Virus record (IMG/VR): IMGVR_UViG_3300009376_001085 | Coordinates: 35,132 to 99,131 of that record | Length of the DNA: 64,000 nt | Direction: 5' to 3' (one strand) | From: a virus | In this document: in pieces, positions 16,095 through 63,588 of the stretch | Layout of the letters: each line of letters opens with the position of its first letter | Position numbering within the stretch: the stretch's first letter is position 1 | Notes under the pieces: generated by a model | The model's database searches: none | What the model saw: only the letters and a program-made list of their open reading frames with translations | Told to the model about the DNA's origin: nothing | Program-made: the position numbers and the translations under genes

Positions 16095-16659
16095 CGATAA
16101 TCCTGAACAATATCGTTCTATTATAGAAATATTTAGAAAAAAAACATTTCAAGAAGGCAACGAAAGTCTAAGTTACAAAAAATATAATCCTGATAATCCT
16201 GATATAGAGACATGGATGGTGTTTAATGAAACCCAAGATCTTATATCTATATCTGCAGGCGAAAAATCTCATTACACAAATGATCCAGACATTGCTTTAA
16301 GAATTTGCAGATACCATATATTAAAACCATTTCGCAGAACACATTGTGGTTTAATGATGGCTGAATATCAAATACAATGGGCTAGAGAACATAATTATCA
16401 AATTTTATATGTTACTCATGATATTAAAAATAGAGCGTTGAATGATTTATATCAACGAAAACGTAAAATGCCATTACCATCATTTAAAAAATGGACAGAA
16501 GGTGAGTGGTATAAAAAATTACAACTAGAAAAAAATTTTTTATTTAAAACAGGAAATATGTTACAATATGTTTATACTATTAGATTGTTTGATCCTAACT
16601 TTATATGGAATCCAAAATCAGATTACATAGTAGAAAAAAAACATAACGGAGATATTTAA
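16066..16659 (+). CDS. GNAT-like acyltransferase protein
   Basis: The order of elements suggests a GNAT acyltransferase: a strand pair WMVFNETQDLISISAGE, the pantetheine-loop region ILKPFRRTHCGLMMAEYQIQ, and the following YQILYVTHDIKNRALNDLYQ helix, where GNATs place an Asn/Tyr. The usual QxxGxG/A is not exact, so the assignment is tentative. Acyl transfer from a CoA donor to a sugar or amine would fit the pathway. The gene ends the + strand arm; its stop TAA shares bases with the stop of the convergent gene. Confidence 0.5.
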   Translation: MENFLVKKYSDNPEQYRSIIEIFRKKTFQEGNESLSYKKYNPDNPDIETWMVFNETQDLISISAGEKSHYTNDPDIALRICRYHILKPFRRTHCGLMMAEYQIQWAREHNYQILYVTHDIKNRALNDLYQRKRKMPLPSFKKWTEGEWYKKLQLEKNFLFKTGNMLQYVYTIRLFDPNFIWNPKSDYIVEKKHNGDI

Positions 16660-17582
16660 TTAATTGTTTCTTTTCTCATTTGCATGTCTGTAAGACAAAT
16701 ACAAGCATGTTTGTTACATATAATAGGATCATTAGGAAGATTAATTATTCGTTTTTTAATATTTCCTAATACCCACTCGCTATCCAGACCGCAAGCAGAT
16801 CGTGTTATGGAATTATCTTCTCTAATACGGCACCCGTCTATTCCTGCATAACATTTCCAACCAAAAAAATTATCTTTTCCGGTTAATTTAGCTTCTGCTG
16901 GATCATAATACTCATTATTTAAGTATAACAAATTAGTAATTAAAGACCAATCTACATTTGTTTTCTTATTAAATAGCTTATTCCATTTTTTATGAGATAG
17001 AAATTGTTTTTGTTCATCAGTATAAGGTACATAGGCACCACCCTTATCTTCAACTAAAACTCTCATCACATACGAATTTGGATAATTTTTTAATTTGTCG
17101 TGTATGTAATAACAATTATCTAAAGACTGTTCCCAATGTGTTGGGTCTAATAAAACAGATATTACAATGGGTTTATGTTGATCGAAGATTTTACATATAT
17201 TCACTATATGATCAGATTTAGCGAATTTTGTATGCACAGAAAGTATTAAGCCTGACAAATATTTTTGATTTTCTTTCCACCAACGTAAAGTTCTAGAACC
17301 ATTTGTTATAAAATGAGTATAAACATTTCTATTATATAATTCTTTCAATAAATTGGATATTTTGGGATTTAATGTAGGTTCTCCGCCAGTAAACCTAGCA
17401 GTAAGTTGCTTATATGGATACTTTTTTTTAATTTCATCAATACACCATAAAATATCATTATTATCTAATCTAGTATTTCCTGCCCATACTAACGGTGAAC
17501 AATAAGAACACCGATAATTACAAATTGTGTTTAATACTATGTCAGTTATAAAAATATTATTATTTTCAAGAGTTAATTTCAT
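16656..17582 (-). CDS. Radical SAM protein with C-terminal Cys cluster
   Basis: The [4Fe-4S] motif CNYRCSYC is at residues 21-28 and FTGGEPTLNP binds SAM. The C-terminal 70 residues hold further cysteines (CYAGIDGC, CGL, ICNKHACIC) like a SPASM-type auxiliary cluster domain. It lies just after a QueC-like PP-loop gene with a 17-base overlap, which suggests a joint reaction. QueE was considered, but this protein is longer and has the extra cysteines. I chose the ATG at 17582; a GTG lies 45 bases upstream. It is the last gene of the long - strand array. Confidence 0.85.
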   Translation of the reverse strand: MKLTLENNNIFITDIVLNTICNYRCSYCSPLVWAGNTRLDNNDILWCIDEIKKKYPYKQLTARFTGGEPTLNPKISNLLKELYNRNVYTHFITNGSRTLRWWKENQKYLSGLILSVHTKFAKSDHIVNICKIFDQHKPIVISVLLDPTHWEQSLDNCYYIHDKLKNYPNSYVMRVLVEDKGGAYVPYTDEQKQFLSHKKWNKLFNKKTNVDWSLITNLLYLNNEYYDPAEAKLTGKDNFFGWKCYAGIDGCRIREDNSITRSACGLDSEWVLGNIKKRIINLPNDPIICNKHACICLTDMQMRKETIN

Positions 17583-18225
17583 CTGAAAAACCCCATATTC
17601 GTTCCTGACACCACCAACATATACCACAATGTCCTAATCCCGGATCTTTATTACTTTGTTTTTCCCATTCACATGATCTAGTATGTACAAATAATTTATC
17701 TATTAAATTATACTCTCTATATATTTGAGCTATTTTCTTTTTATCTATATTACACCATGGCGTATAAATTGTATTATCATATAATAGAACTTTGCGTTCG
17801 ACTGTAGGATCTCTGTTTACTTCTGAAGTTTTTTCTATAAATGTATCAGTTATATATTTTGGCGGATTTGCAGTAATGCCTGTATATATAACATTTACTA
17901 ATTTATTTTTTATATAATAATTTGTTTTATCAAATATATTACTTAATGTTTGGTGATCACAAAATGTACTATGATGTTCTATATTTATATTTCCTGTTAA
18001 CTCAATACATTTTTGAATAACATTATTAGTAATTGTTATATTTTTAAATTGTCTTGCTTTATTTCCTGACGAAAAAATATAAATCTTGTTTTTAGAATAT
18101 TTCATTAAAAAATATAAAAGCAAAGAACTATCTGCCCCGCCGCTACAACTTATACCGATAGGGCCTTCATATATTTTTAAATTGACCCCAGATAAATCTA
18201 ATTCTTTAAGTTCGACTAAATTCAT
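17566..18225 (-). CDS. PP-loop ATPase with QueC-like zinc motif
   Basis: An N-type ATP pyrophosphatase: the PP-loop SGGADSS is at residues 28-34. The C-terminus carries four cysteines, Cys185 and then CGICWWC (Cys200, 203, 206) followed by an Arg, spaced as in the zinc site of QueC, which makes the nitrile of preQ0. Length, 219 residues, equals that of QueC. No queD, folE or other 7-deazaguanine gene is in view, so the enzyme may activate a carboxylate on another substrate, perhaps the product of the neighbouring radical-SAM enzyme. It overlaps both neighbours. Confidence 0.75.
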   Translation of the reverse strand: MNLVELKELDLSGVNLKIYEGPIGISCSGGADSSLLLYFLMKYSKNKIYIFSSGNKARQFKNITITNNVIQKCIELTGNINIEHHSTFCDHQTLSNIFDKTNYYIKNKLVNVIYTGITANPPKYITDTFIEKTSEVNRDPTVERKVLLYDNTIYTPWCNIDKKKIAQIYREYNLIDKLFVHTRSCEWEKQSNKDPGLGHCGICWWCQERIWGFSDEINS

Positions 18226-18854
18226 GGCTCTAATAGATTTGTTACTGTTGATACAGATTCTTCGGTTAATTTAACATTCATTATTAATACAATATGATCT
18301 TGGTCGTCATTGGCATTAAATACGGTATGTCGTTTGCAAGTATTTAAAAAATATAAATGACCGTAATTCCAAACAAGTATTTTATTTTGTTCATATATAA
18401 AAAATCCCCCATCTAACGGGTTACATACCTGTAAAGGAACAAGTAGTCTAAAACTATCTATTGTAGATCCAATATTATCAATATGAGTAGGAAAAAATCC
18501 CCCAGGAGACAACTTTAATATATGTGATCTAACCAACCATTCTTTAAAAGGATCACAATAAAACTTTACTACATCATAAACAGGTGTCGGTATAATGAAA
18601 TCAGATTCAGATATATTTGTATTATTTTCTTTATTATATTCATACAAACTATCTAAGTCAGGACCAGGGCCTAAAATACCATCTAAATTAGTTATACTTA
18701 ATCCCCAACGATTTATATTTTTTCTAGGATTATATTTCGCCCAATTATTATTAAATTGTTTTAAATTATTTAATATTAAATCAGGGTGGGTATTTATAGT
18801 TAATTCAATTTGATCTCCATAGGCAGTTATGGTGTTAAATAATTCAAAACTCAT
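18222..18854 (-). CDS. AspH-like 2OG-Fe(II) oxygenase
   Basis: FFPTHIDNIGS supplies His124 and Asp126, and KRHTVFNAND supplies His176, typical of aspartyl/asparaginyl-hydroxylase-like proteins of phages. The position that normally carries the 2OG arginine after the second His reads DHIVLIMNV, so 2OG binding may differ. The N-terminal 100 residues are unrecognised. It overlaps the PP-loop gene by four bases and the upstream radical-SAM gene by eleven. Confidence 0.7.
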   Translation of the reverse strand: MSFELFNTITAYGDQIELTINTHPDLILNNLKQFNNNWAKYNPRKNINRWGLSITNLDGILGPGPDLDSLYEYNKENNTNISESDFIIPTPVYDVVKFYCDPFKEWLVRSHILKLSPGGFFPTHIDNIGSTIDSFRLLVPLQVCNPLDGGFFIYEQNKILVWNYGHLYFLNTCKRHTVFNANDDQDHIVLIMNVKLTEESVSTVTNLLEP

Positions 18855-19998
18855 ATGTTTTATCTCCTGGCCACAACGGCATTTTAGTTCCCTGTTTACG
18901 TTTGGGTATTTTGCTATCCGCTGAACTTACACAACTATTACTAATACAAACTTTTGGGCCATCAAATAATTTAAAATCATTATAAATGTAACCTAATGGT
19001 TTATCGTCACAACTATAACTTCGTTTTATACTACCGTCTGGTTCTCGTATTATAATGCTTCTATGCCCACTACTACATTCCCACCCTTTAAAGTTATTAA
19101 ATTCAAAAGCATTAAACCGTTCTGCTTGGTCCATAAACCAATATTTTTTATTTTTATCTCTAAATTCTACTTGAAAATGTTGCGGTACATTATTATTTTC
19201 TTCCCAGTAAATTGGGTCGGGGCGTTTGACAAATGTTGGTTTAGGTCGTGTAACATGTTTATTTTTTGCTTCAGTAAATCCACGCTGAGGCATTCCATTG
19301 TGTAACTGTTCAAGCATCTTATCATCATATCCTTTAACTACAAAATTGGCGTGAGGATCACTTTGTGGCTTTAATGTAACATTAATACCACGTTCGTGAA
19401 AATACATTACTTCATCCATTATTTTCCAAAACCATTCAGGAACCATTACACAATTAATTGTTATCTGTACATCATGTTCTTGGCATAATTCTAATTTATC
19501 TGCTAATAGTTTACGCCGCTTTATTTCACTATTATACTCACGATGGTAACTGCATGTAATACTTGCTCGATGAAATGGTGCCGCGGCTTTCACATACTTT
19601 TCAAACCAACGTATGCCGGGTGAACAGTTGCTCGTCATATGTACAGATGTATAATTTGTATTTTTAATATCATCACCTAGATACTTGAGTATTTCAAGAT
19701 AACCAGGATGCAAAGTAGGTTCGCCGCCAGACAAACTAAAATGAAAACTATTAAATCCTCGCTCCCTAGCTTGTTTTTTAATTTTATCAATTGTTTCAAG
19801 ACATAATTCTGTAGGTCTATGGTCCTTATCATCGCTCCTCCCGTGTTCCCAACAATAACTGCAATGGTAATTACAAAAGCGGCCAAGCAACCAAGAGACT
19901 GTAAATAAATCTCTGTAGAGCATATTACGTTGGCCTACTCTTACAAGTTTATCAAATGGAATTTTAGTAAAATCGTATGTACTTGTTATTTTATTCAT
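18844..19998 (-). CDS. Radical SAM/SPASM-type protein
   Basis: CNYHCSYC at residues 42-49 binds the SAM cluster, and FSLSGGEPTLHP gives the GGEP motif. The C-terminal part has GWECSSGHRSIII, then YSCDD and VCISNSCVSS, an auxiliary-cluster region resembling that of the protein at 16656, so the two are related. The final 20 residues are basic and proline-rich. It probably performs radical chemistry on the same kind of substrate as its neighbours; the substrate is unknown. Confidence 0.85.
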   Translation of the reverse strand: MNKITSTYDFTKIPFDKLVRVGQRNMLYRDLFTVSWLLGRFCNYHCSYCWEHGRSDDKDHRPTELCLETIDKIKKQARERGFNSFHFSLSGGEPTLHPGYLEILKYLGDDIKNTNYTSVHMTSNCSPGIRWFEKYVKAAAPFHRASITCSYHREYNSEIKRRKLLADKLELCQEHDVQITINCVMVPEWFWKIMDEVMYFHERGINVTLKPQSDPHANFVVKGYDDKMLEQLHNGMPQRGFTEAKNKHVTRPKPTFVKRPDPIYWEENNNVPQHFQVEFRDKNKKYWFMDQAERFNAFEFNNFKGWECSSGHRSIIIREPDGSIKRSYSCDDKPLGYIYNDFKLFDGPKVCISNSCVSSADSKIPKRKQGTKMPLWPGDKTYEF

Positions 19999-20890: not shown

Positions 20891-20904
20891 TAAGAATTGT
20901 TTTT

Positions 20905-21930
20905 TTATTCTCTCTCATTTATTTTTTCTAAAAAATATTTTGCTATCCAATTATGTGATAAATGGCCAGGATGTCCTAGTTCTCGTCCAACATCATTAGA
21001 ATCCATAGTATCAAAATTGCCTTCGTCAAACCATTTATTAAAAGGTATTTCTTTACTATCTGAATATAGATATACAAACTTCGTTACTCCATTTTTATTA
21101 CATAGATATCGAATTGCATCAATATTTTTCTTAGCATTAGTTTTTGATTGATATGCATTTGAAAGTTCGTATATTAGATAATATTTAAAATATTCACGTA
21201 TTTCTCTTGTCTGACCATGACTAACAGTACCAAGGTTTACAAAAGAAAACATTCTTGATTTATTTGCACAACTACTTGTGTCTAATCCTAACTTTTGTTG
21301 TTCAAAGTAATTATTAACTTTATGATCTATATCTACAAACGAACGTCTACCTACGTTTGGTCCTAGCATACATACATATTTGGGTTTTAAAATAGGTAAC
21401 CAATATGATGCATATGTATAACATGCATCGTGTCCGGCACCTGGTAATCCAAAATTCCAACAATTTAAGTCTAATTCTTTACTTATTTTAACCGGCCATA
21501 TATCATTATAATGCATTCCAGTTCCATATGTTAAACTGCATCCTAAGAACATAATACCGTCACCTTCGTATGGATCCGATGTTCGAAATCCGTGGTTATT
21601 ATAATAATAAGTTAATGCTTCGGGTGGTACAACTTCAGAACTATTAACCCATACCTCATTTTTATTCTCTTTGTCATATTTTGGGTCAATGTCTTTTATA
21701 AAATCATAATTAGATAGCCATCCGGCGTTTTCTAGTATAGATTTTGCTTTTGCATTTTTTAAGTGATCGTTCCAAGTATCTCTGTTATCGCCACAGTCCC
21801 ACAAATAAGTTCTATTTGTTTTCCAACTATATTCATGAAAGTATGGTATTTCTTCATTGTAATTAAATGCTCCGTCTTTCCACCAGTCAACTACTTTATC
21901 AAAATCTACTTTATTGGCGTTCATTGTCAT
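20905..21930 (-). CDS. SGNH/GDSL-like hydrolase family protein
   Basis: IMFLGCSLTYGTG places the nucleophile Ser132, and LGHPGHLSHNW gives the C-terminal histidine block. Before the nucleophile is YYYNNHGFRTSD, the signature shared with the proteins at 8202 and 33634. The unrecognised N-terminal 100 residues contain several Trp-rich segments. The likely reaction is ester hydrolysis or acyl transfer on a glycan or similar product. It overlaps the upstream radical-SAM gene by four bases. Confidence 0.75.
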   Translation of the reverse strand: MTMNANKVDFDKVVDWWKDGAFNYNEEIPYFHEYSWKTNRTYLWDCGDNRDTWNDHLKNAKAKSILENAGWLSNYDFIKDIDPKYDKENKNEVWVNSSEVVPPEALTYYYNNHGFRTSDPYEGDGIMFLGCSLTYGTGMHYNDIWPVKISKELDLNCWNFGLPGAGHDACYTYASYWLPILKPKYVCMLGPNVGRRSFVDIDHKVNNYFEQQKLGLDTSSCANKSRMFSFVNLGTVSHGQTREIREYFKYYLIYELSNAYQSKTNAKKNIDAIRYLCNKNGVTKFVYLYSDSKEIPFNKWFDEGNFDTMDSNDVGRELGHPGHLSHNWIAKYFLEKINERE

Positions 21931-23216
21931 ATATACCTTTCAATTCGAGGATGAAGATAATCTAAAACATTTGTATTTCTAATTTTATCTTGCATAATTG
22001 TGTGTTTTTTAAAATGAAAGCGTAACTCATCAATACTATTAGGTTTAATAGTAGGATATGATTCTTCAGGAAATATTTCCCATATTGGTTCAGTTAAACA
22101 AGTCTGTACAGGCATTAATGTTTTTTCGATAAAATATTCATCCTTTATGTTACATTCTTTTATTAGATCATTAATTTCTTTTACTATGAACTTTTTATCA
22201 TCGTCAAATAAAATAGCAGGATGGAAATGAGGTGGTTCTTCACATGCTTGAATATAAGGGGGTGCAATATTATCACCTTGTTTATATAAATTATAAAAGA
22301 ATTTACCCCAGGTTTTAACATCAAAAATATTATACATTTGCAATACTAAATTTATAGATAAATGTACAAGATTTTCCATTTCACGTAATGAATATACATT
22401 ATTAATAACTTGATCCCATTTTGCATTTGTTCGTATATAATCATATGTTTTTCCGGTTCCGTCTAAACTTGCACAAACATTCAACTTTTTAAATTGTTTA
22501 AATAATTGCCAATGTTTATTAAAATTTGTACAATTAGACGTAATATTTAAATTTAAATCAGTATTACCTTCCTCTATTAATTTTTCCAAAAATGATATTG
22601 TATCGGGATCAACTGTAGGCTCGCCTCCTAAAATATTCAACCTTTTAATAAGTTTAAAATCAATAGTAGAAATAAATTTAATTATATCCATATTAGATGT
22701 TTCCTTACGCCATCGATCGCCTCGATAATATTGATGAATTTCTGGATTGGCTGTTACTTCTTTTAATATTTCTGTACTATTTCCTGGATCACACATACGA
22801 CATTTTAAGTTACAAACATTACCTGGTCTAATATCTAAGGCCAATGGTTGTTTAAATTCGTTACCATAATTTATATCATCTGTTACAGTACCTCCATCAC
22901 GTTCTATATATTCTAATCTGTCACTGCTCCATCCTTTTCGTTCTCTATCTCCACATACATGACATTCGATAGGTTCTTCGCCTTTTAATAATTTTTTCCG
23001 TATTTCTAAAAGTTGTTTATCTTTATAAAAAAATTCTTTAAGACGATTACTAGCCGGTATGCCAGATACTTTTTCACTGAATGCTGATCGTGTTTTTCGA
23101 CCCTCACAACACATTTTTATAGAATCCTTGCCAGCATTAATATAGATATGCATAAATGGTGCCGGGCAATAAAAATCTTTACGTATTTTTATTTTTTCAT
23201 GTAACTCTGATCTCAT
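21927..23216 (-). CDS. Twitch-type radical SAM protein
   Basis: An N-terminal cysteine module (YCPAPFMHIYINAG, KMCCEGR, ECHVCGDRE; residues 17-90) comes before the radical-SAM core at residues 135-142 (CNLKCRMC) and the SAM motif LGGEPTVDP. This order, auxiliary module first, is typical of the proteins named twitch-domain radical SAM in marine phages. The C-terminus ends ...LDYLHPRIERYI. It is a close relative of the next gene, with which it overlaps by four bases (ATGA). Confidence 0.88.
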   Translation of the reverse strand: MRSELHEKIKIRKDFYCPAPFMHIYINAGKDSIKMCCEGRKTRSAFSEKVSGIPASNRLKEFFYKDKQLLEIRKKLLKGEEPIECHVCGDRERKGWSSDRLEYIERDGGTVTDDINYGNEFKQPLALDIRPGNVCNLKCRMCDPGNSTEILKEVTANPEIHQYYRGDRWRKETSNMDIIKFISTIDFKLIKRLNILGGEPTVDPDTISFLEKLIEEGNTDLNLNITSNCTNFNKHWQLFKQFKKLNVCASLDGTGKTYDYIRTNAKWDQVINNVYSLREMENLVHLSINLVLQMYNIFDVKTWGKFFYNLYKQGDNIAPPYIQACEEPPHFHPAILFDDDKKFIVKEINDLIKECNIKDEYFIEKTLMPVQTCLTEPIWEIFPEESYPTIKPNSIDELRFHFKKHTIMQDKIRNTNVLDYLHPRIERYI

Positions 23217-24589
23217 TCTAAATATCTTTTTAATTGTGGCGTAATCTCTAAAACATTTGTTTTTCGTATTTTGTCTGCTACTAATGTGTGACGAACAAAT
23301 TGTTCTTTATTATATTGAATATTAGGTATCATCCAACGATCTGCTCTTTTTTCTATATTTTCTGGTATGTTATCTGTAAATTTAGATTCTTTTCTATAAT
23401 GACTTACATCTTTATTAAGATCTGAATATACTTGTTGAAAACATTCTTGTTCTTTATCATTTATGTTATAGTCATATATTACTCTATCTATTTCGCTTCT
23501 AATAAAATCTTTATGATCTTCATCTAGCCAATGTACATTTAAATGCATTGGTTCAACTATCGGATGTAGTGCTGGTGGATCTATAAATTCAAACCGTCGA
23601 CTTTGTTCTATCATCCATGCAACATGATAATAGATATGAAATACGTTATATACATTTATAACACTATTGAATCCTATACTATAAATATTAGGTAACTCAC
23701 ATGCTTTTAAAAAGTTTGCGTGAACTTTTTTCCATTCACACCCTGTTCTACAATATTCAAATACTTTTCCTATTCCGTCAACACTAAATCTTAATTGTAA
23801 TCTTTTAAATTGAGAAAGTAATTCAACTGCTTGTTTAGGCCAAACTGTGCCATTAGTAATTATGTGTAATTTTATATTTTTAGCATCGCCATGGTCTACT
23901 AATTGCTTCCATATTTTAAAACAATTAGGATCTATTAACGTTTCGCCTCCAGACATTTTCAACCATCGAACATCTGTTAAATCATAATTTTCATATAACC
24001 TAGAATTATCTTGGTCCCAGTCAATAGATTCTGCCATTCTCATTTGCCATTTATTATCAGTATACATATCCCAATATGTGCCTTCTAATAAATCATGATT
24101 ATCTAGTACTTCTTTTTCTATTTTACTACTCCAGATGCTACAACAAGATCGACATTTAGCATTACATAGTTTACCAGGACGTAAGTCTAAATCAATTGGA
24201 TGGCCATATTTATTACCTGTTTTAATATTAAGCCCCATATCTTCTACTGTTAAATCTGCATCAGAATACTTCTCTATAAATTCTACTCTTGTACTTTCTC
24301 TATCAACTCCGATTTCTTCATAGTGTTTACAATAATCGCACGGACGAGATCCATTTTCGAGAACCGGCCATTCGTTATTTAAAAATGATTTTCGTATGCT
24401 TTTAATTTTATCACCAGTCCATAATCGATGTTGTTGGGCCGCAACTGAATCGCCTTTTTTAATTGCAGGAGTATCTATTCTATCTATAATATCACTCATA
24501 CAACATAATTTAAATGCACTATTCCCCATACTTGTGTACGTATGTAAAAACGGAGCAGGACAAAATACTTTTTTTAACTGTTCTCTCAT
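23213..24589 (-). CDS. Twitch-type radical SAM protein
   Basis: The N-terminal module has FCPAPFLHTYTS, KLCC and CDYCKHYEE (residues 10-92). The core motif is CNAKCRSC at 142-149, with SGGETLIDP in place of GGEP. The tail IRKTNVLEITPQLKRYLE mirrors the IRNTNVLDYLHPRIERYI tail of the downstream paralogue, so the two arose by tandem duplication and may act as a pair. Substrate unknown. Confidence 0.88.
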   Translation of the reverse strand: MREQLKKVFCPAPFLHTYTSMGNSAFKLCCMSDIIDRIDTPAIKKGDSVAAQQHRLWTGDKIKSIRKSFLNNEWPVLENGSRPCDYCKHYEEIGVDRESTRVEFIEKYSDADLTVEDMGLNIKTGNKYGHPIDLDLRPGKLCNAKCRSCCSIWSSKIEKEVLDNHDLLEGTYWDMYTDNKWQMRMAESIDWDQDNSRLYENYDLTDVRWLKMSGGETLIDPNCFKIWKQLVDHGDAKNIKLHIITNGTVWPKQAVELLSQFKRLQLRFSVDGIGKVFEYCRTGCEWKKVHANFLKACELPNIYSIGFNSVINVYNVFHIYYHVAWMIEQSRRFEFIDPPALHPIVEPMHLNVHWLDEDHKDFIRSEIDRVIYDYNINDKEQECFQQVYSDLNKDVSHYRKESKFTDNIPENIEKRADRWMIPNIQYNKEQFVRHTLVADKIRKTNVLEITPQLKRYLE

Positions 24590-33612: not shown

Positions 33613-33633
33613 TACAGTTTTTTATCATACATA

Positions 33634-36069: not shown

Positions 36070-36162
36070 TTAATCATATATGGGTCGAGGAGTTGAATCT
36101 TTTTTTCTTAATAGCTTTCGGCGTTTATACCAATTTTTAATTTTTTTAATTATCGAGCACAT
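36070..36162 (-). CDS. Tiny basic peptide ending IYD, 30 aa
   Basis: This frame fills the gap before the radical-SAM gene at 35008. It begins with an ATG 17 bases inside the upstream gene and stops exactly at the base before the next ATG. About a third of its residues are Lys or Arg, and it ends KKDSTPRPIYD. The peptide at 38596 ends EEDPFIYD after a similar K/L/R-rich helix, so they look like one family. Possible roles are a peptide substrate, a leader peptide or a membrane-active peptide; none is proven. Confidence 0.5.
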   Translation of the reverse strand: MCSIIKKIKNWYKRRKLLRKKDSTPRPIYD

Positions 36163-41833: not shown

Positions 41834-41834
41834 T

Positions 41835-42804: not shown

Positions 42805-42811
42805 TTTTTAA

Positions 42812-46192: not shown

Positions 46193-46208
46193 AAAACTAT
46201 ATTGAAAG

Positions 46209-50016: not shown

Positions 50017-50031
50017 ATATCCTTCAATCCT

Positions 50032-53182: not shown

Positions 53183-53768
53183 TTGTCATACCTGAAATAT
53201 TTTTATCGTCTAAAGCAATATGTACAAATTTACGTATAGTATCTGAAGAAATAGATTTTTTCGTAAATTGATCTCCGAATATATTTGCGGATCCGGGAGT
53301 ATTAACAATGTCTGTACATATATTAATATGTTGTATAAATTTATATCTGTTAGTAATATATTTAAAATATGTGTCTACTGCCGCTTTAGATGCATAATAT
53401 GCAGGTGGTAACATTTTTACATCCCTAAAAGCAGTAAGTGCCAACGATCCAAATGTTAAAAATTTTGTAGGTTGTTGAATACTTATTTGATGCTCAACTA
53501 TAGAACATAACGGATGAAACATAATATCAAATAAATTACGTACACTATCTGTCCTGGACATATCCATACATGTGTATGTGATAAAATCAAATGTATTATT
53601 ATTTAAGAATTTATTAAGTTCATTAGTATCAGTAACATCAAGTATTATAGTATTATTTTTGCCAGATCGGCTTATACCTATAACAGAATGTTTTAAATCT
53701 CTATGTAACAAAAGAACTTCTTTGCCTAATCCTTTGCTTGCTCCTACTACAAGTGCGTTAATTTTCAT
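53172..53768 (-). CDS. Short-chain dehydrogenase/reductase (SDR)
   Basis: NALVVGASKGLGKEV is the NAD(P)-binding TGxxxGxG motif (residues 4-18) and AYYASKAAVD holds the catalytic Tyr124 and Lys128; FLTFGSLAL gives the serine strand. At 198 residues it is shorter than most SDRs, with little beyond the catalytic helix, so substrate binding is reduced. It would oxidise or reduce an alcohol or ketone, perhaps of a sugar. It overlaps the radical-SAM gene upstream by eleven bases. Confidence 0.85.
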   Translation of the reverse strand: MKINALVVGASKGLGKEVLLLHRDLKHSVIGISRSGKNNTIILDVTDTNELNKFLNNNTFDFITYTCMDMSRTDSVRNLFDIMFHPLCSIVEHQISIQQPTKFLTFGSLALTAFRDVKMLPPAYYASKAAVDTYFKYITNRYKFIQHINICTDIVNTPGSANIFGDQFTKKSISSDTIRKFVHIALDDKNISGMTIVS

Positions 53769-55209
53769 AAATTTGTTTTAGATATTGTTGTTTAAGATTT
53801 TCTTTTCGTATTTTAAATTCTTTAAAATTAATATCAGAAGTTTTAGAAATATTAAAACATTTGGTATAATCATACCCCAAATTTCTCATGCGAGAATAAA
53901 ATTGAAAAGAAGACAAATAAGTTTTTGTTTTACATTTCTCATTAGTGGTAAAATTAGTTAACAACTCATCTGCTTGTTCACTTGTGATTTCCTTGCTTAG
54001 CCAAGTTTCGTTTGTTTCTTTACTAAACGTACTATAATCTATTATATCTTCTAATGTTTTATCATACTTTGGTATATATAATTTTTGAAATACAAAACTA
54101 TCTAATGGACAATCGGGTGCAGTAAGCCAGTCAAATGTTTCATTTAATGACTCTTCTGTTTCCCCAGGCAATCCTATTATAAAACTTGCTCCTAATAGAA
54201 CATCGTTGTTATATTTTTCTTTTAAAAAATATAATAATTCTTTTTGTTTTTCTGGATGCAATCCTTTGCCTATATGTTTGCCTGCTTTATGATTAAAAGT
54301 TTCAATTCCAAATTGTAAACTTTTTGCACCACTTTCTTGTAATAATTCTCGCATTTCTCGCCATCGCCACATCAAATCTAATCTAGCATAACTAGACCAT
54401 TCAATTTGAAACGGTAAAGAAGTAAAAGTTTCATGCAAAGACCTAACTTTATGAATAGAATCATTATACAAATCATCAGTAAACATGTAACCTGTTGTCC
54501 CCCAATTATTATAATTCAATAGCATTTCTTCTTTTATTGTTTCTGCTAGTTTAACATTATCTCCTGTATTTTTTTTATCATAATTACAAAATTTACAATT
54601 AAATGCACACCCTCTTGCTATTTCTATTGGTAAATGTTCGTTATCAAAAATATAATCACTTACATGAAATAATATTTTACTTCTTTTAAATTTATCATAT
54701 TTGTAATTTGTATTGCTATAAATTTTATTTTCAATTTTTTTATTATTTTTTAAACAATTTAACAATGCTATAATACTATTATCTGCTTCCCCTAATACAT
54801 AATAATCTATTGGGAGTCGTCCGTTGTAATGCGGTGCCTTTGCTCCTCCGATAACTATTTTACAATTACTATTTTTTGTTTTAATATAATTTAAAAATTC
54901 CATCATCCATGGATTAGAATGGGGGAATGTTGCAATATTTGACAAACGAAGACGTTTTCGTAAATCAGGAGATGCTTCATCTTCAGTTGCTCTACTGAAC
55001 AAAGTTGTTGCAAAACCCACAATAAGAGTATCTTTTGTAACAAATTTATCTATTAACTGTTTTGATTCTTCTAGTGTAAAATGAGCGAAAAAGTCGATAA
55101 CTTGGCACGAATATCCTGTATTTCTTATTTCTGTTGCTACTTTATATGCGCCAGCGTATCTACCAAACCCCGGTACTCCGTTACAGTCAGTAAATATTAT
55201 TGTATCCAT
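53758..55209 (-). CDS. Radical SAM protein with B12-binding-like N-terminal domain
   Basis: Residues 1-150 resemble the cobalamin-binding Rossmann domain of B12-dependent radical-SAM enzymes (IIFTDCNGVPGFGRYAG, then VGFATTLFSRATEDE and KIVIGGAKAPHY). The DxHxxG histidine motif of classical B12 domains is absent, as in many members of this class. The core CAFNCKFC is at 201-208, and the GIETFN and GASFIIGLPGETEESLNET segments are typical. Such enzymes often methylate or rearrange carbon centres. It lies three bases before the stop of the PP-loop gene upstream. Confidence 0.85.
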   Translation of the reverse strand: MDTIIFTDCNGVPGFGRYAGAYKVATEIRNTGYSCQVIDFFAHFTLEESKQLIDKFVTKDTLIVGFATTLFSRATEDEASPDLRKRLRLSNIATFPHSNPWMMEFLNYIKTKNSNCKIVIGGAKAPHYNGRLPIDYYVLGEADNSIIALLNCLKNNKKIENKIYSNTNYKYDKFKRSKILFHVSDYIFDNEHLPIEIARGCAFNCKFCNYDKKNTGDNVKLAETIKEEMLLNYNNWGTTGYMFTDDLYNDSIHKVRSLHETFTSLPFQIEWSSYARLDLMWRWREMRELLQESGAKSLQFGIETFNHKAGKHIGKGLHPEKQKELLYFLKEKYNNDVLLGASFIIGLPGETEESLNETFDWLTAPDCPLDSFVFQKLYIPKYDKTLEDIIDYSTFSKETNETWLSKEITSEQADELLTNFTTNEKCKTKTYLSSFQFYSRMRNLGYDYTKCFNISKTSDINFKEFKIRKENLKQQYLKQIYEN

Positions 55210-55211
55210 TT

Positions 55212-56108
55212 TTAATTACTTGAATATACCTTTAATACATTTCTTTCTTCATAATCATTTAATAATGTTTCATATGGTAAACTTAAAAACCGGCGCCATT
55301 TTTTGGGTTGTTTTTTTGCATCTTTAAATTGATCACACATATTTGGCGGAAAAATATATCGTTTTTTTTGCTTAGGAATATTAAATCCAAACCAATTATA
55401 TAATTCGTTCTTCCAACCAAAATCGAAATCTTCCGTTGTTTTTTCTTTTACTTTTTGTTTTATAAAATCATTAAAAATAAACGAACAACCAGTTGCGGAT
55501 GTATCTGTTAAAAATCTTGCTTCGCCAGGTCTTTTATAATAATTAAAACTTTCAGAACTACTAAGTCCCATAACTGAGGAAATAAAATGCATTTTACCTT
55601 TACGTAATCCGAGATCACCCGGCATACTAATACCTAAACATAAAAAATATTCAACAGGTAAATTGCCAATGGCCCAATATTGCAAAAAGTAATCTGGATG
55701 AGGTAACCATAAATCTAATTTCATGTATTCATCAAATAATTCATTTGCATTAATATCTATATATTCGACCTGTTTTTTATTATCTTTACAAAATTGTTTT
55801 GCAAATTCTATTTCATATTCATTTAAAAATTTACCACTATCATAAACTTTATACACGAAATGCATAGCATCTACTTTTGCTTCGTGGAAAGCATTAGCAA
55901 CAACTAAACTATCCTGCCCGCCACTTAACATTATAGCAGGATTTTCAATATCATATCGTTGACATCTCTGAAGTAATGTTTCTTTATAATCAAGGGGGTT
56001 TATTCCTTTTGTATTAGTAGCATGATCATAAAAATGATTATACCACCAATTAAATCCTAATTCAAATTGATAGTTTTCTGATATTTTATATTTAAACCAA
56101 GTATTCAT
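55212..56108 (-). CDS. PP-loop ATPase (SGGQDS)
   Basis: AIMLSGGQDSLVVANAFH contains the PP-loop at residues 62-68, so the protein adenylates a substrate using ATP. It is closer to the asparagine-synthase or PAPS-reductase type than to the QueC-like protein at 17566, and it lacks the C-terminal cysteine set. The next region has FLCLGISMPGDLGLRKG. The partner may be the radical-SAM gene directly after it. The 17-base overlap with the upstream gene supports co-translation. Confidence 0.75.
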   Translation of the reverse strand: MNTWFKYKISENYQFELGFNWWYNHFYDHATNTKGINPLDYKETLLQRCQRYDIENPAIMLSGGQDSLVVANAFHEAKVDAMHFVYKVYDSGKFLNEYEIEFAKQFCKDNKKQVEYIDINANELFDEYMKLDLWLPHPDYFLQYWAIGNLPVEYFLCLGISMPGDLGLRKGKMHFISSVMGLSSSESFNYYKRPGEARFLTDTSATGCSFIFNDFIKQKVKEKTTEDFDFGWKNELYNWFGFNIPKQKKRYIFPPNMCDQFKDAKKQPKKWRRFLSLPYETLLNDYEERNVLKVYSSN

Positions 56109-57402: not shown

Positions 57403-58136
57403 CTATTATCTTTTGCATTTTTACTTATTTTTTTCCAAAGTTCATCATTAAGAGTGTTATTTACTAAATCTAATAAACGGGCCCATTCTTGTTTATTCGG
57501 ATATAAAATTAAATTTCTTGCATTAAAAAGAAAAATTTTATCAAATTTTTCTTTTGGATTATATCTCCAATTTGTAATATACATATTTCGTACAAAATCT
57601 ATACCATGTGTTTGTAATTTATCTATTAAATACCTATCAGGATTACCATGCGTATTTTGTAAATTTTTATGACACATTAAATTAAATTGTTCGTGTTCAT
57701 ATCCTTTTGGCCAATAAAAATGTAAAATAGTAAAATTATTTAAAAATTCGAAAAATATTTCTCTACGGCGAATTTCAGAATGTAAATGACAAAGAGCAAA
57801 ATAATAATTATCAATTGGGTCAACATTTTTTAACCATACATTAAATAAATAATTGCTTAGTTTATATAATTCTTTTAGATCTAATTTGTGTATATCTCTA
57901 TTAATATGTAATTTTTTAGACAATGTTTTATCTATTTCCATTGTCCGAAACCTACTTTTAAAAATATCTCTAAACCACCATTTATTAGTTAATTCGTTCC
58001 GCCAATTTTTATAATAATCTTTATAAACACAATCATCAGCTATTATTGTACCTATAAAATCTCCACCTGCTCCAGCAAATGCCGATATAAAATATATTTT
58101 ATCTTTTAATTCAAGAACGTCTATCATTTTTTTCAT
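57363..58136 (-). CDS. Hypothetical protein of the GAGGxFIG family
   Basis: FISAFAGAGGDFIGTIIADD carries the same glycine-rich loop as the protein at 19991, here at residues 18-30. Other common features include an early cluster of Trp and Tyr and a basic centre. The likely fold is a nucleotide- or sulfate-binding Rossmann type without the P-loop lysine. I chose the ATG at 58136, with GGACC before it; an ATG lies at 58151. The start overlaps the stop of the radical-SAM gene upstream by 26 bases. Confidence 0.55.
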   Translation of the reverse strand: MKKMIDVLELKDKIYFISAFAGAGGDFIGTIIADDCVYKDYYKNWRNELTNKWWFRDIFKSRFRTMEIDKTLSKKLHINRDIHKLDLKELYKLSNYLFNVWLKNVDPIDNYYFALCHLHSEIRRREIFFEFLNNFTILHFYWPKGYEHEQFNLMCHKNLQNTHGNPDRYLIDKLQTHGIDFVRNMYITNWRYNPKEKFDKIFLFNARNLILYPNKQEWARLLDLVNNTLNDELWKKISKNAKDNRCILGNLTLDLVM

Positions 58137-59346
58137 GGGTCCAAATGTCATCTATTTGATTATTCTCGCCACATGTGGTAGCACAATATCCTAATTTACC
58201 ACAACGAATATTATCCTTATTCCAGCCATCTTTAAATATATTAAAATAACCACTATTATACACTTCTTCTAATGTATTTTTGTATAAAGAAATATTATCT
58301 TCGCCAAATTTCTTAACTACTTGTTGTATCTGAACTAATTCAAACCAATTAGATGGTACATAATATACTGTACCTATCCAACAACATGGCATAACTAGTC
58401 CTTGGGCAGTAACATAAATCTCATGTTTATCTTCAGGATTTTCGGGTTTCCCTAATACTTTGCAATTTATAGTTGAATTATTAACTCTACGTTCATAATC
58501 AATCTCGGCATGAGCAGTTTTAGGATCAAAGTCTAAAATAGAATCCATAAATATTTTGTCCCATTTATATCTACTTGCTAAAGGTATAGATTGATGAATA
58601 TTAACATTACCTATTTCAGTTCTTGATCCTAAATTTCTATTGTTTTCATCTGTCGGCGCTTCTAATAAATATTCCATCTCTCCATTCCTATTATAAACAG
58701 GGTGGGGCACAGGATTTCCGATTTTATCTAAATTTTGAAACCCTAATGCTTTTTTTGCAATAAATTTATCAAATCCCATTTCTTCACTTAATTGACGAGC
58801 TTCGTCAATTTGATGTTCATTATGTTTAAAAATAAGAAATTCCCATTCTGCTTTGCCACCGCCATCTATAAATGCTTGAGAATTTTCCATTACTTTTTTC
58901 CAACTATTATTTCTTCTATATAAATGATTAGTATCTTCCAAACCATCTATACTAAAAATTAATTGTCCTCTATCTACATTTTTGGGGAAATATTTTCCTA
59001 ACTCTTTATAATAATCAGGAGTCCGAACTCCTCCATTTGTATTCATATGGATAAATGAATCGTCGTGTTCTGTTCTTATATATTCTATAATTTTTAACAT
59101 ATCTTTAGCAACATTTGGCTCGCCAGTACCTCCACATAAAACCCAACTTTTTAATTGCTTAATATAAGGCGAAAACCAAGATTTAAAATCTTGAAAAGAT
59201 ATTTCAGTTAGTTCTAATGTTTTTCTTACAGATGCGCCATTAATACTTCGAGGGCACATAGGGCACAATAAATTACATTTACTTGTAGGTTCTAAATGTA
59301 TTTGATAAAGAGACTCTAACTCAAAATCCGGGTAATATTTCTGCAT
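58111..59346 (-). CDS. Radical SAM/SPASM protein
   Basis: CNLLCPMC at residues 24-31 and CGGTGEPNVAK form the SAM site. The SPASM domain follows from about residue 290 (INCKVLGKPENPEDKHEIYV, PCCWIGT, CGKLGYCATTCGE). It is related to the protein at 35008: both contain FSIDGLEDTNHLYR and FKHNEHQ-DEA-QLS segments. The middle differs by an inserted stretch around 200-260. It probably acts on a similar substrate. It overlaps the upstream radical-SAM gene by 26 bases. Confidence 0.87.
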   Translation of the reverse strand: MQKYYPDFELESLYQIHLEPTSKCNLLCPMCPRSINGASVRKTLELTEISFQDFKSWFSPYIKQLKSWVLCGGTGEPNVAKDMLKIIEYIRTEHDDSFIHMNTNGGVRTPDYYKELGKYFPKNVDRGQLIFSIDGLEDTNHLYRRNNSWKKVMENSQAFIDGGGKAEWEFLIFKHNEHQIDEARQLSEEMGFDKFIAKKALGFQNLDKIGNPVPHPVYNRNGEMEYLLEAPTDENNRNLGSRTEIGNVNIHQSIPLASRYKWDKIFMDSILDFDPKTAHAEIDYERRVNNSTINCKVLGKPENPEDKHEIYVTAQGLVMPCCWIGTVYYVPSNWFELVQIQQVVKKFGEDNISLYKNTLEEVYNSGYFNIFKDGWNKDNIRCGKLGYCATTCGENNQIDDIWTHEKNDRRS

Positions 59347-60532
59347 AATCTTTAAATAATTTAGTAAAATCTTGTTTTCGATATTTGTCGTGTTCTTTTA
59401 TTTCATTAACCCATCTATTATAATCATCAACATTATATTCTTTTGAATGCATAAAATTTATTATATTATCAATTCCTCTATATGCATGCCAATCGGTAGA
59501 TGCATCTTTTAAACCATCTCGTACTTTTTCTTCTATTTTTTGCTTAACTTCAGTAGGAATATTTGTTATATTTTGATAACTAGGCCAATGAACTAAATTT
59601 AAATAAACACCTATATTTTGTTTTTCGAAAAAATTTACAACTTCGTCAATATAATAAACATTAAAATTACTAATAGTTAAACAAACACCTGCACTTACTG
59701 TTTCAGGTTGCTCATCTCGAAATGCCATGTACTTTTTTATATTACTAAGCACTCGTTTCCATTTTGCAGGATACCGCATAAATTCAAATCTATCTTCTAT
59801 TCCATCTATTGAAAACTGTATATCAACCCAGCCAAATTCTTTAAGCCAGTTTAAATATTTTGTTCTGAAAACAGTTCCGTTAGTATTATAATGAAGTTTT
59901 TGATTTTTAGAATAACCTAACTCAACACTTTTTTTAATAAGATTCCATTGCTCTTGTATAATCATAGGTTCTCCACCATAAAAATCAAAATGATTTATAT
60001 TAGGTAACCAATTATCTAATGTTTTCCAAAGGGTATTTTCAGTTGAAAAACATTTTGATATTTGATCCATATGTGTGTTGATTTGTTTTGCTTGATCTTC
60101 ATTAGCAAAAAATAACTCTTCTTCTAACCATCCAGTGCTACTATGTGTACCGCATGTACGACATGCAATATTACATTTATTTCCTAGTTTTAAATCTAAT
60201 ATTTGAGGCTGTGACAAATCATTATCTAATAATTCTTCATGTTCTTTGTTATCCCTTATTCGCTTTGAATTTCTTTCTGCTTTTTCTTCTACCCAACACA
60301 AGTTACAATTAGGATGATATTCTCCATTATTTAATGCATCTCTAACTTCATTTATTTGATCACAATTCCAAAACTCTTCAAGAGTATAGTCATTTAAAAA
60401 TGTATTATTACCATTTATCTTTAATCTATCACTACTCATACAACATATTTTTACCTCACCATTGGCCTCGACTGATAAACTGGTAAAAGGTAAAACACAA
60501 AATGTTTTACTGTTTTTGTTTGCACAACTCAT
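59321..60532 (-). CDS. Twitch-type radical SAM protein
   Basis: The N-terminal module reads FCVLPFTSLSVEANGEVKIC, then CNLCWVEEKA (residues 11-86). The core CNIACRTC is at 120-127, with FYGGEPMIIQ as SAM motif. The 403-residue protein is a typical simple twitch member with a helical tail. Both ends overlap neighbouring genes by 26 bases, so the three radical-SAM genes at 58111-61895 are translated as one block. Confidence 0.88.
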   Translation of the reverse strand: MSCANKNSKTFCVLPFTSLSVEANGEVKICCMSSDRLKINGNNTFLNDYTLEEFWNCDQINEVRDALNNGEYHPNCNLCWVEEKAERNSKRIRDNKEHEELLDNDLSQPQILDLKLGNKCNIACRTCGTHSSTGWLEEELFFANEDQAKQINTHMDQISKCFSTENTLWKTLDNWLPNINHFDFYGGEPMIIQEQWNLIKKSVELGYSKNQKLHYNTNGTVFRTKYLNWLKEFGWVDIQFSIDGIEDRFEFMRYPAKWKRVLSNIKKYMAFRDEQPETVSAGVCLTISNFNVYYIDEVVNFFEKQNIGVYLNLVHWPSYQNITNIPTEVKQKIEEKVRDGLKDASTDWHAYRGIDNIINFMHSKEYNVDDYNRWVNEIKEHDKYRKQDFTKLFKDYAEILPGF

Positions 60533-61895
60533 AAAAATCCTTATATTCTGGAAATGTTTTTAAAAAATTTTTATTTCTTCGTTTGTCGTGTTCTATAACA
60601 AATTTATAAAAATCTTTTTGTCCATTAGTAACTTGTTCTGGTGTAAATGGATTTTTTATCATAACGTCTGTAACCCTTTTCATTTTTTCATATTCTACTT
60701 CACTAAAACCATGCCAGCCTATTTTATCCATCCTATTTTTTCTCATAAATTTGAGTATATCTTTTTGATCATGTAAATATGATTCAGGCAAAGTATTAAG
60801 TAAAAACCAAGGGGGTTCTTTAATATATGGAGTATCAAATGCAATACGTTGTTCTTTTTCGCTGTTAAATTCAATTTCTTTAAATTCAGTTCGCCATTCC
60901 ATTATTTTTTCTAATAACAATTTAAAACTATTTCTTACACATAAATTATGATAGGTACACATTAAATGAAGTTTACTATTTTTAACTGAATTTAAATATA
61001 ACCTAATATTAGTTTCCCATAGCTCGCAATCAAGCCCGCTTCGTATATACTCTGCCTTTTCTCCCCAAGATTCGACACTAGTAAATAATTCAAATGCTTT
61101 AATTTTATTTTCAGCAAGTAATTTGTTTATTTTTGTAGTCAGTCGTTTTATAAACTTAGTTGCCATTCCCATATTACTATTAACATGTATAGTTAAATGG
61201 GGCGAAGGATCTTTATCTAACATATCAAGCATCTTATATGTATTTAGATTAATTAAACATTCGCCTCCTGTAATACGCAAAACTTGTAAATCATTTTTTA
61301 AGTCGGGCCACCATTTCCAAAATGCATCTATATATGGATTATAATCGTCTGGCTTATAAAATTGATCTTGTAAAAATTCTATACCATATTGATTGTACGA
61401 AACATCATAATTACCGTATCTTTCAATTTCTTCCATCCAACTAGAACTTGCTTGAGGACAACAATAAATACACTTAAAATTACATTTATTGCCAAAACTT
61501 AATTCTATATGCCTAGGATTCCAGTCAGCATTCCATGATAAATTTTTAATAGTATTATAATCTTTTAATGCATACTCATTTGAACTATGAATAAATCTAT
61601 CAGATATATGGTCACCTTCTAAATCTTCTATATTCCAACAATAATAACATTCTTCAGGACGTCCGCCTTCTAGCATTGTTTTACGTTGTTGTTTTTTCCA
61701 TTCTGTATTATGTAATGCCGAAGGATTATTCTCTATTTCTTTTAATCCTATTCGTCTAGGTTGAGGATGATAGCAACTATGATTATCGCCCATATGAAGA
61801 TATAAAGTTTCTGTTTGCCATTTCATTAGGCAAAATCCTTTACCCACTTCATTTAATTTATTTTTTGTAGAAATTATATTTTCAAGATAACTCAT
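60507..61895 (-). CDS. Radical SAM protein with CYHP-type N-terminal module
   Basis: The N-terminal module differs from the common type: FCLMKWQTETLYLHMGDNHS, then CYHPQPRR and CYYCWNIEDLEG (residues 21-94). The core CNFKCIYC is at 138-145, and the SAM motif is ITGGECLINLN, with GGEC. The module is shared only with the next gene, so these two form a separate subfamily. A Cys-x-His pair may replace a Cys ligand of an auxiliary cluster. The tail DFYELCKQKQ is short. Confidence 0.86.
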   Translation of the reverse strand: MSYLENIISTKNKLNEVGKGFCLMKWQTETLYLHMGDNHSCYHPQPRRIGLKEIENNPSALHNTEWKKQQRKTMLEGGRPEECYYCWNIEDLEGDHISDRFIHSSNEYALKDYNTIKNLSWNADWNPRHIELSFGNKCNFKCIYCCPQASSSWMEEIERYGNYDVSYNQYGIEFLQDQFYKPDDYNPYIDAFWKWWPDLKNDLQVLRITGGECLINLNTYKMLDMLDKDPSPHLTIHVNSNMGMATKFIKRLTTKINKLLAENKIKAFELFTSVESWGEKAEYIRSGLDCELWETNIRLYLNSVKNSKLHLMCTYHNLCVRNSFKLLLEKIMEWRTEFKEIEFNSEKEQRIAFDTPYIKEPPWFLLNTLPESYLHDQKDILKFMRKNRMDKIGWHGFSEVEYEKMKRVTDVMIKNPFTPEQVTNGQKDFYKFVIEHDKRRNKNFLKTFPEYKDFYELCKQKQ

Positions 61896-63588
61896 ATTGC
61901 GTTTTACAGTCTATATAAAATTTTGATAGTTCAGGAAAAACTTTCAAAAAATTAAGATTTTTTCTTCTATCATATTCTTTAAAAAACAAATAAAAATTAA
62001 TCATTTTATCTTTAGGGTTAGTTGTTCCTTGTTTTGCCCATTCTAAATTTCTTTTCATTTTGTTTATTTCAAATAATTTAAAACCTGGAGAGATTGTATT
62101 TTGAATTTCTGTATTTTCAGCATTGTCAGATAGGCTTATATTATTCTCCATAAACAAAATTGCATCTTCTATATAATTTAGATATACTGGTTGATTAATT
62201 AATTGAATATTCATCCAATCAGGATATTCTAAGTAAGGAATGTCAAACCATACTAATTGTCTATCTTGTTTTATGTTTGACGTTCGAAGGTCTAATATGT
62301 ATTGTAAGAAATTTTTTAATTTAGGTAAACTTAATATATTAAATGTATTTATGAATGATATATTAACACCTTCTGTTTGTGCTAATACAGTATCTACATT
62401 TCTTTTTAAGTTATTATAATTTAATCCGTATCTAATATATTCTGCCTGTTCTTCTACAGTATCTAGGCTCACATATAATGTAAACTGTTTTCCTTGATTT
62501 AATGCTAATTTAGAATTTGACGGATAAAATTTTCCATCAATTTCTGTATAATTTTCTATATAAAAATATGCTCCGCTATCAGGATCAAACCCTCGCTCAT
62601 TAAAAGTATCGTGTATATTAGTTTCAGATATTCTTGGATATTTTTTAAGTATATTATCATCGCATGATTCTTTTACTATAAATCTTTTTCTTTCGTATGG
62701 ATTAGGATGGTCGATATTAGGCACATAAAATTTAACATCTATACATTTATTTTTTACCTGTTTTTTTGTTATTTTATTAACACTATCTATAAATTTATAT
62801 AACATTTTTTGATCAGGTGGACATAAATTACTGGTTATTGATACTTCTAACAACGGATGAGGATGTTTATTAATGTAATCTAACATTTTAAATGTATTTG
62901 TATCAATAAGAGGTTCGCCGCCAGTCATTCTAAATGTACGCAAATCTTTATAAATTGTAGGTAACCATTTCCAAAAAGCATCAACATAAGGATTTTCTTC
63001 ATTAGACATTTTTAACGGCATATCTAAATATTGTATATCATTATGATTAGAATCTATTCCTGACATTTTATATGGACCAAACTCCTTTATTTCTTTTTCC
63101 CATGTTGTACTCAAATGCGGTGAACAATACATGCATTTAAAATTACATGCTTGATTAAAATTTACTTCGACATTAATTGGATTAACATTATAGTCATAAG
63201 AAGAGGTAGAAATTTTTTTTAATTTATCTTCTGCCCAATCCCAGTCCATATCAAAATATTCACAAGCTCTATAATGCCTATCACTTGTATGATCTAAATC
63301 TTCAGCAGACCAACAAAATTGACACCCTTTTGGTTTGGTTCCTTCAAGCATTAATTTACGTTCGTTCTTTTTTTCTATTGTATTATGTAATGCGCCTGGG
63401 TTGTCTTTTAATTCTTCTAATGGAATTTTATGAGCAGGAGGATGATAACAACTATGTGTTTTTCCTTGAGGCAAATGTAAACTAACTTGCAACCATTTAG
63501 CCATACAAAACGACTTGCTGATCGAGTTAAGTTTTTCTTTCATGACCTCGGATTTATTATAATATTCTCCTCTTTTTAATTTTTGCAT
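61882..63588 (-). CDS. Radical SAM protein, CYHP-type, with large insertion
   Basis: It shares the module FCMAKW...HSCYHPPAHK and CQFCWSAEDLDH with the protein at 60507 and has CNFKCMYC at 148-155 and TGGEPLIDTN. About 100 residues (roughly 290-390) are inserted in the second half of the barrel compared with its sister, including CDDNILKKYPRISETN. The insertion may cap the active site or bind a partner. The start is the ATG at 63588; another ATG 45 bases later is possible. At 568 residues it is the largest single-core member other than the PLP fusion. Confidence 0.84.
   Translation of the reverse strand: MQKLKRGEYYNKSEVMKEKLNSISKSFCMAKWLQVSLHLPQGKTHSCYHPPAHKIPLEELKDNPGALHNTIEKKNERKLMLEGTKPKGCQFCWSAEDLDHTSDRHYRACEYFDMDWDWAEDKLKKISTSSYDYNVNPINVEVNFNQACNFKCMYCSPHLSTTWEKEIKEFGPYKMSGIDSNHNDIQYLDMPLKMSNEENPYVDAFWKWLPTIYKDLRTFRMTGGEPLIDTNTFKMLDYINKHPHPLLEVSITSNLCPPDQKMLYKFIDSVNKITKKQVKNKCIDVKFYVPNIDHPNPYERKRFIVKESCDDNILKKYPRISETNIHDTFNERGFDPDSGAYFYIENYTEIDGKFYPSNSKLALNQGKQFTLYVSLDTVEEQAEYIRYGLNYNNLKRNVDTVLAQTEGVNISFINTFNILSLPKLKNFLQYILDLRTSNIKQDRQLVWFDIPYLEYPDWMNIQLINQPVYLNYIEDAILFMENNISLSDNAENTEIQNTISPGFKLFEINKMKRNLEWAKQGTTNPKDKMINFYLFFKEYDRRKNLNFLKVFPELSKFYIDCKTQYELS

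Follow-up and report, generated by a model that had tools for sequence, protein, structure and literature searches.

We found that a 64,000-nucleotide stretch of viral DNA (positions 35132-99131 of the 99,131-bp IMG/VR record IMGVR_UViG_3300009376_001085; hereafter the window) carries a long array of radical S-adenosylmethionine (rSAM) genes, and that this array belongs to an uncultured, large T4-like aquatic phage. The array may be an island that tailors a surface glycan or glycoconjugate, built from a conserved core and interchangeable cassettes, a reading to which we give about an even chance. Genomic context, not biochemistry, favours it: the mix of enzymes (glycosyltransferases, methyltransferases, SGNH hydrolases, a carbamoyltransferase, PP-loop ATPases, hydroxylases and rSAMs), the tail-fibre location in phages, and, in bacteria, a setting that is partly one of polysaccharide loci. 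Genes are named below by the first coordinate of their window position, and all those detailed are on the minus strand.

The array and the phage that carries it

The original prediction, made from the letters alone, had counted 17 rSAM cores in 16 minus-strand genes, one of them with two cores. A scan with the Pfam model PF04055 agreed: the 99,131-bp record holds 17 cores, every one inside window 16656-63588, on the minus strand and in 16 open reading frames (ORFs), and the ORF at 27017-31270 (1417 aa) holds two of them. The PF04055 cut-off was exceeded by 12 of the 17 and most of the cores below it were backed by the NCBIfam model NF033640; the profile searches did not reject the cores. Of the signature motifs, which had been assigned throughout, CxxxCxxC is present in 17 of 17 cores and a GGE/GDP-like motif in 15, the latter being degenerate in 34412 and missing from the B12-type 53758. 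Ten cores are of the N-twitch type, and the seven others are SPASM-type (35008, 58111, 50032 and the split 34412/33301), shorter (16656 and 18844) or B12-type (53758).

The 45 ORFs of the array are tightly packed, with overlaps at 35 of 44 junctions and widest gaps of 109 and 76 bp. Scans for sigma-70 and T4-late promoters gave nothing above chance level, and promoter- and terminator-like sites, scanned over 32000-51000, were no more frequent than in shuffled sequence. This is compatible with the claim that the array has no internal promoter or terminator, and does not prove it. Note that TATAAATA was under-represented (8 observed, 26 expected).

The array does not end at 63588, as had been proposed. 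The 85.7-kb contig G022, which overlaps window 60130-64000 (3.9 kb) at 99.6%, carries it about 6 kb further, with one more N-twitch rSAM and several glycosyltransferase-like ORFs, followed by tail/baseplate genes (698-, 1599-, 4065- and 1185-aa proteins and gp25). The next array gene, at 63609-63998, is cut at the contig end and goes on in G022. Because of their overlap, we took the record (G000) and G022 to represent one phage. The 4065-aa ORF (G022:17577-29774) sits between the baseplate genes and the array and is possibly a giant tail protein.

Many paralogues on one metagenomic contig could also arise by chimeric assembly of several genomes, an explanation we consider barely credible here. 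Two other, independent contigs are 99.99-100% identical to window 21267-42664, which rules out a chimera for that part, the right end is tied to G022, and unrelated phages repeat the gene order. The independent contigs therefore confirm the array and extend it.

With regard to the host phage, the record itself encodes a T4-type DNA polymerase (phrog_262) and a QueE-like gene. The gp23 capsid protein was found in 10 of the 15 records searched, this partial record not being among them; in G001, G003, G007 and G008 it matches as two pieces within one open frame, which suggests an insertion in the major capsid protein. In 16 of the 17 records that have both gp25 and the array (all but G001), the two share a strand, with the array 27-64 kb downstream, although these 17 records are related to one another and are not independent observations. 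In G022, tail and glycosyltransferase-like genes stand directly upstream of the array. A place beside the baseplate and tail-fibre genes is the usual site of the hypervariable host-recognition region of T4-like phages. Judged by its position, and by the strand it shares with the tail/baseplate genes, the array is a tail-fibre-adjacent, hypervariable region of this host-recognition type.

Relatives of the array core genes occur in hundreds of phage contigs. With 31264 as the query, 80 viral loci were kept (62-100% identity). In related contigs of 146-257 kb there are 6-23 rSAM cores per contig, and larger contigs (262-608 kb) with 61882-type genes in common have 2-15 NF033640 matches apiece. 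The viral record G023 (607,744 bp) has 11 N-twitch rSAM matches, most of them at 401-414 kb. Among cultured phages, rSAM cores number 6 in Vibrio phage K566, 5 in KVP40, 2 in Mosig, 1 in HTVC008M and 0 in S-SSM7. Since rSAM enzymes are oxygen-sensitive and costly, it matters that aquatic phages retain up to 23 such cores per genome.

Conserved core, N-twitch repertoire and bacterial counterpart

As the original prediction had proposed to check, the gene order was sought elsewhere, and the core order was found again across many phages: carbamoyltransferase 42812 (when present), 37916, 37177, 35008, 31264 and 18844. Variable rSAM, SGNH and other genes lie between these core genes. Two sub-cassettes recur, 61882-60507-59321 and 27017-23213-21927, homologues of 37916 form part of larger fusion proteins in other phages, and the domain resembling pyridoxal phosphate (PLP) enzymes, here a fused part of 24586, is encoded elsewhere by a gene of its own.

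The NodU/TobZ-type carbamoyltransferase (42812-44314) has the domains PF16861 and PF02543 and a median identity of 54% in relatives; the NodU equivalog NF041651 was rejected for it (153.9 bits, cut-off 1000). Structure prediction backed the glycosyltransferase and methyltransferase that had been proposed. The AlphaFold2 model of 37916-38596 (pLDDT 90) suggests a GT-A-like glycosyltransferase with a DxD motif (invariant D57 and D59) and matches WrtF, GtrB and ArnC in Foldseek (E 5e-5 to 9e-4), whereas that of 37177-37938 (pLDDT 86) has a predicted class I SAM-methyltransferase fold (Foldseek to methyltransferases, E about 1e-6). Three rSAMs complete the core. The rSAM-SPASM 35008-36069 (PF04055 35.1 bits, PF13186 23.3 bits) is conserved in the 80 loci with a median of 51%. 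The N-twitch 31264-32664 shows 49-65% identity to its Bdellovibrionota relatives, and 18844-19998 (PF04055 49.7 bits) is 62-71% identical to aligned phage relatives and 55-65% to those in Bdellovibrionota. For 18844 and its distant relative 16656-17627 (PF04055 35.5 bits; hidden Markov model (HMM) of the 18844 family, E 3e-21), viperin (NF038283) was rejected, with 42.7 and 50.6 bits, respectively, against a cut-off of 180.

The N_Twi_rSAM architecture (NF033640, curated cut-off 170 bits) accounts for ten window cores in nine ORFs. Four ORFs are well over the cut-off: 59321-60532 (318.6 bits), 60507-61895 (269 bits), 24586-27027 (320.6 bits), whose C-terminal, PLP-enzyme-like domain (residues about 490-813) keeps an invariant Asp and Lys, and 27017-31270 (556 bits in two stretches), in which a region of about 500 aa precedes the two cores. 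For 61882-63588 (PF04055 19.6 bits, below cut-off), a 99%-identical copy exceeds the NF033640 cut-off. The remaining four, 21927-23216 (PF04055 44 bits), 23213-24589 (21.6 bits, below cut-off), 45080-46231 (63 bits) and 31264, were assigned from alignment A1. In that alignment the Cys-rich, twitch/SPASM-like segment has invariant C12, C30, C76 and C79 ahead of the core C120, C124 and C127; a pattern search built from it was unusable, the sequences being too divergent. It had been asked whether the paralogues are phage-specific duplications. In a tree built from 484 N-twitch domains, the ten from the window never form sister pairs, although several joins are weakly supported, and the closest relative of each is in another phage. 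We therefore rejected recent tandem duplication within this phage.

The same five core families also occur together in bacteria. Relatives of 18844 were found in Bdellovibrionota metagenome-assembled genomes (MAGs), on contigs of up to 937 kb, and in most Bdellovibrionota loci examined those of 18844, 35008, 31264, 37916 and 37177 lie within a few kb, with rSAM identities between phage and bacterium of 43-65%. These clusters (L203-L221) differ from the phage array in being chromosomal and on mixed strands, and no carbamoyltransferase was present among the loci fetched. In the midpoint-rooted trees of 18844 and 31264, the Bdellovibrionota copies stand apart from the viral ones. Among sampled genomes, 18844 was found in 8 of 114 Bdellovibrionota, and NF033640 in 34 of these 114 against 2 of 185 Gammaproteobacteria, one of the two being the L223 genome, with a viral-looking contig. 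Genomes chosen for carrying the core have 10-42 N-twitch matches each.

Polysaccharide context was seen in L207, L209, L217, L218 and G057, the neighbours including GT2 (L207, L209 and L218), a DegT sugar aminotransferase, a GDP-mannose dehydratase (L209) and an AT3-SGNH O-acyltransferase (L217). One bacterial genome, a single contig of 2.66 Mb, has an N-twitch cluster next to a GT2, two GDSL hydrolases, a MobA-like NTP transferase and an APH/choline-kinase-like protein. No function has been assigned to the N-twitch family, and the block in Bdellovibrionota, some of which are culturable, would allow it to be tested in a bacterium before any phage is isolated. Four further MAG contigs (L205, L215, L222 and L223) are labelled Gammaproteobacteria, Chloroflexi or Acidimicrobiaceae. 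Because the 18844 tree places them among viral copies, we did not trust these labels, and the contigs are probably misbinned phage. L202 ('Rickettsiales') is listed in IMG/VR too, with identical length and coordinates.

Candidate products of the island

Two products had been put forward, a decorated surface glycan or a modified peptide. The multi-gene modification island behind both stood, and the glycan is preferred over the peptide because of the bacterial counterparts. With these core genes present in Bdellovibrionota as well, the probable role of the block is to decorate a sugar polymer of the cell surface through undescribed chemistry. What we infer about the glycan substrate, the order of steps, their timing and their benefit is the following. 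The core (37916, 37177, 35008, 31264, 18844 and often 42812) would synthesize or attach a single unusual unit containing a sugar. The cassettes (further N-twitch rSAMs, SGNH hydrolases, 2-oxoglutarate (2OG) hydroxylases, and PP-loop and PLP enzymes) would modify this unit through radical chemistry at C-H bonds, through hydroxylation and carbamoylation, and by changing its acyl groups. The phage island probably changes the envelope of the infected cell. The likeliest benefit would come from doing so late in infection, for example by blocking adsorption of rival phages.

A broader proposal, which we hold tentatively, is that large phages and predatory Bdellovibrionota share a pathway class new to description, in which a glycosyltransferase, a methyltransferase and three rSAMs form a fixed core that, with an exchangeable N-twitch repertoire, would produce surface glycoconjugates modified by radical chemistry. 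The variety of these products would drive recognition between phages or between predator and prey. If the products are indeed surface glycans, the sugar chemistry would be new, and so would this arena of competition between phages.

Several observations weigh against glycan tailoring. The window was not found to encode a complete sugar-nucleotide pathway, the glycosyltransferase fold match of 37916 is weak (TM about 0.4), the L204 and L214 clusters have unrelated, non-glycan neighbours, and peptides are the substrates of several of the closest N-twitch relatives that have a name or a known structure (SkfB, DynA and PapB). We regard it as doubtful, nevertheless, that the product is a ribosomally synthesized and post-translationally modified peptide (RiPP), or a peptide-derived, glycosylated and methylated redox cofactor like mycofactocin. 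The core block does have the same enzyme mix as mycofactocin (which combines a peptide with rSAM-SPASM, glycosyltransferase and methyltransferase), rSAM-SPASM relatives are often peptide maturases, and about 46 phage loci have a uniformly conserved protein of about 74 aa next to 37177 or 18844. However, this precursor candidate was rejected, since neither the record of this phage, nor its extension, nor any true Bdellovibrionota locus has it; it is also conserved end to end and lacks Cys. A search of small conserved ORFs for a precursor gave no universal family, the 74-aa one being the only strong one, and the window gaps leave no room for a precursor. Moreover, the Pfam scan detected no PqqD/RRE-type domain in any array protein, and a peptide would account neither for the SGNH, PP-loop and carbamoyltransferase genes nor for the polysaccharide context in bacteria. 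A peptide product is less likely because there is no shared precursor or recognition domain. The 74-aa family itself (about 69% identity; L018:6237-6458, L021:5611-5847, L023:8684-8908 and about 43 more loci) matched none of 50,697 phage records and is unknown in GenBank phages.

The strand and neighbourhood shared with tail/baseplate genes, together with the Asp/Asn hydroxylases, would also suit enzymes that hydroxylate, cross-link or glycosylate the tail fibres or adhesins of the phage itself. We think this unlikely, since the bacterial core blocks have no adjoining phage structural genes in the loci inspected and the carbamoyltransferase, symporter and sugar enzymes fit poorly. Nor does it seem at all probable that the array is an assortment of auxiliary metabolic genes that serve the cofactors or nutrition of the host and have no common product: the content is heterogeneous (a sodium:solute symporter, a cytidylyltransferase-like protein and QueC-like proteins are part of the array), but core order and linkage are kept over many phages and bacteria and both sub-cassettes recur. 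Finally, the carbamoyltransferase could act on 5-hydroxymethylcytosine (5hmC) in DNA, with the other enzymes elaborating the bases, as phage carbamoyltransferases that modify 5hmC are known (PMC8670742). That modification co-occurs with thymidylate-synthase homologues, and carbamoyltransferases beside glycosyltransferases sat in unmodified contigs (PMC8670742). PF00303 was absent from G000 and G022 (about 181 kb seen, which may be incomplete) and from 7 of 12 records tested, including the array-rich G002, G005 and G008. Because no thymidylate-synthase homologue was found, we disfavour DNA hypermodification and consider it very improbable.

Remaining array genes and comparison with known systems

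The functions said to be interleaved with the rSAMs found support in Pfam for the Asp/Asn beta-hydroxylase-like 2OG oxygenases 32645-33301 (PF05118 46.4 bits) and 18222-18854 (20.4 bits, slightly under the cut-off of 22.6), the TauD-type 2OG oxygenase 51804-52673 (PF02668 39.6 bits) and the carbamoyltransferase. The PP-loop claim held in part: 17566-18225, which is QueC/Asn-synthase-like, exceeds the PF06508 cut-off of 22 (26.6 bits) and 55212-56108 is below it (18.3 bits). The SDR-like (short-chain dehydrogenase/reductase) protein 53172-53768 is likewise under its cut-off (PF00106 20.8 bits, cut-off 26.6). Searches of PDB sequences with 55212 and with the PLP-like domain of 24586 gave no informative match. 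A putative SGNH hydrolase, 20905-21930, has a GCS block aligned with GDSL relatives (alignment A6), its only Pfam match being DUF6473, below cut-off. A methyltransferase-like protein, 41835-42371, has the sequence motif and no Pfam match over cut-off.

Among the other rSAMs, 58111-59346 (PF04055 39 bits) is related to 35008 (HMM of that family, E 4e-104), and 50032-50745 has a C-terminal SPASM domain (PF04055 48.6 bits, PF13186 22.1 bits). The B12-binding-type 53758-55209 (PF04055 61 bits) had no relatives when used as viral query, and the P-methyltransferase PhpK was rejected for it (81.6 bits, cut-off 600). A lone SPASM gene that had been overlooked, 33301-33612 (PF13186 22.0 bits, intact-family positions 243-341), pairs with 34412-35008 (PF04055 32.4 bits, positions 1-201) as one split rSAM-SPASM gene. 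Between the halves sits an SGNH-hydrolase-like ORF (33634-34485, from position, reading frames and alignment A6); other phages have intact relatives, and the split recurs in L013. The array also encodes a MORN-repeat protein (48895-50016) and the symporter (40358-41833, PF00474 84 bits). Symporters are unusual in phages, and this stretch, with a G+C content of 0.38 against about 0.29 and a reversed AT skew, is perhaps a recent import.

How does the array compare with systems already known? The mycofactocin locus likewise combines rSAM-SPASM, glycosyltransferase and methyltransferase genes. The array differs from it in having many more rSAMs and in that neither a precursor peptide nor a RiPP recognition element (RRE) was found. 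Glycosylation of mycofactocin is carried out by MftF (PMC7491314). The NF033640 model carries no functional name, whereas here there are many divergent paralogues per genome.

The claim that the system is undescribed needs qualification. Neither the array and core block nor the link to Bdellovibrionota and rSAM clusters in Bdellovibrio was found in the open-access literature searched (subscription papers and preprints fell outside its scope), and there are partial precedents. Viromes are enriched in rSAM genes (PMC7150976). The marine T4-like metagenome genome TARA_ERS488813_N000010 (183 kb), reported in 2017, has 12 rSAM genes (PMC5332604); it shares with the array a T4-like phage and many rSAMs, and in the available part of its description, on which our comparison is based, these are presented as Fe-S-related genes, with no analysis of an array, a core block or their function. 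In the cultured Pelagibacter phage Mosig EXVC030M, a small island of this kind at 58-74 kb of the record, beside VrlC, shares MoaA-annotated rSAMs, a carbamoyltransferase (32% identical), a 37177-related methyltransferase and Asp_Arg_Hydrox, and differs in having only 2 PF04055 matches. The Mosig island also holds an L-Ara4N-type aminotransferase, and its content speaks for the glycan reading, as does that of the pelagimyophage region described next. The pelagimyophage hypervariable region beside the tail-fibre/VrlC genes, described in 2020, holds glycosyltransferase and rSAM cassettes (PMC7029224), and the portion of that account available to us does not describe N-twitch arrays. Set against that region, the array has 17 rSAM cores, a conserved core block and larger phages as carriers, and the shared core block may be more than a variant of the known islands.

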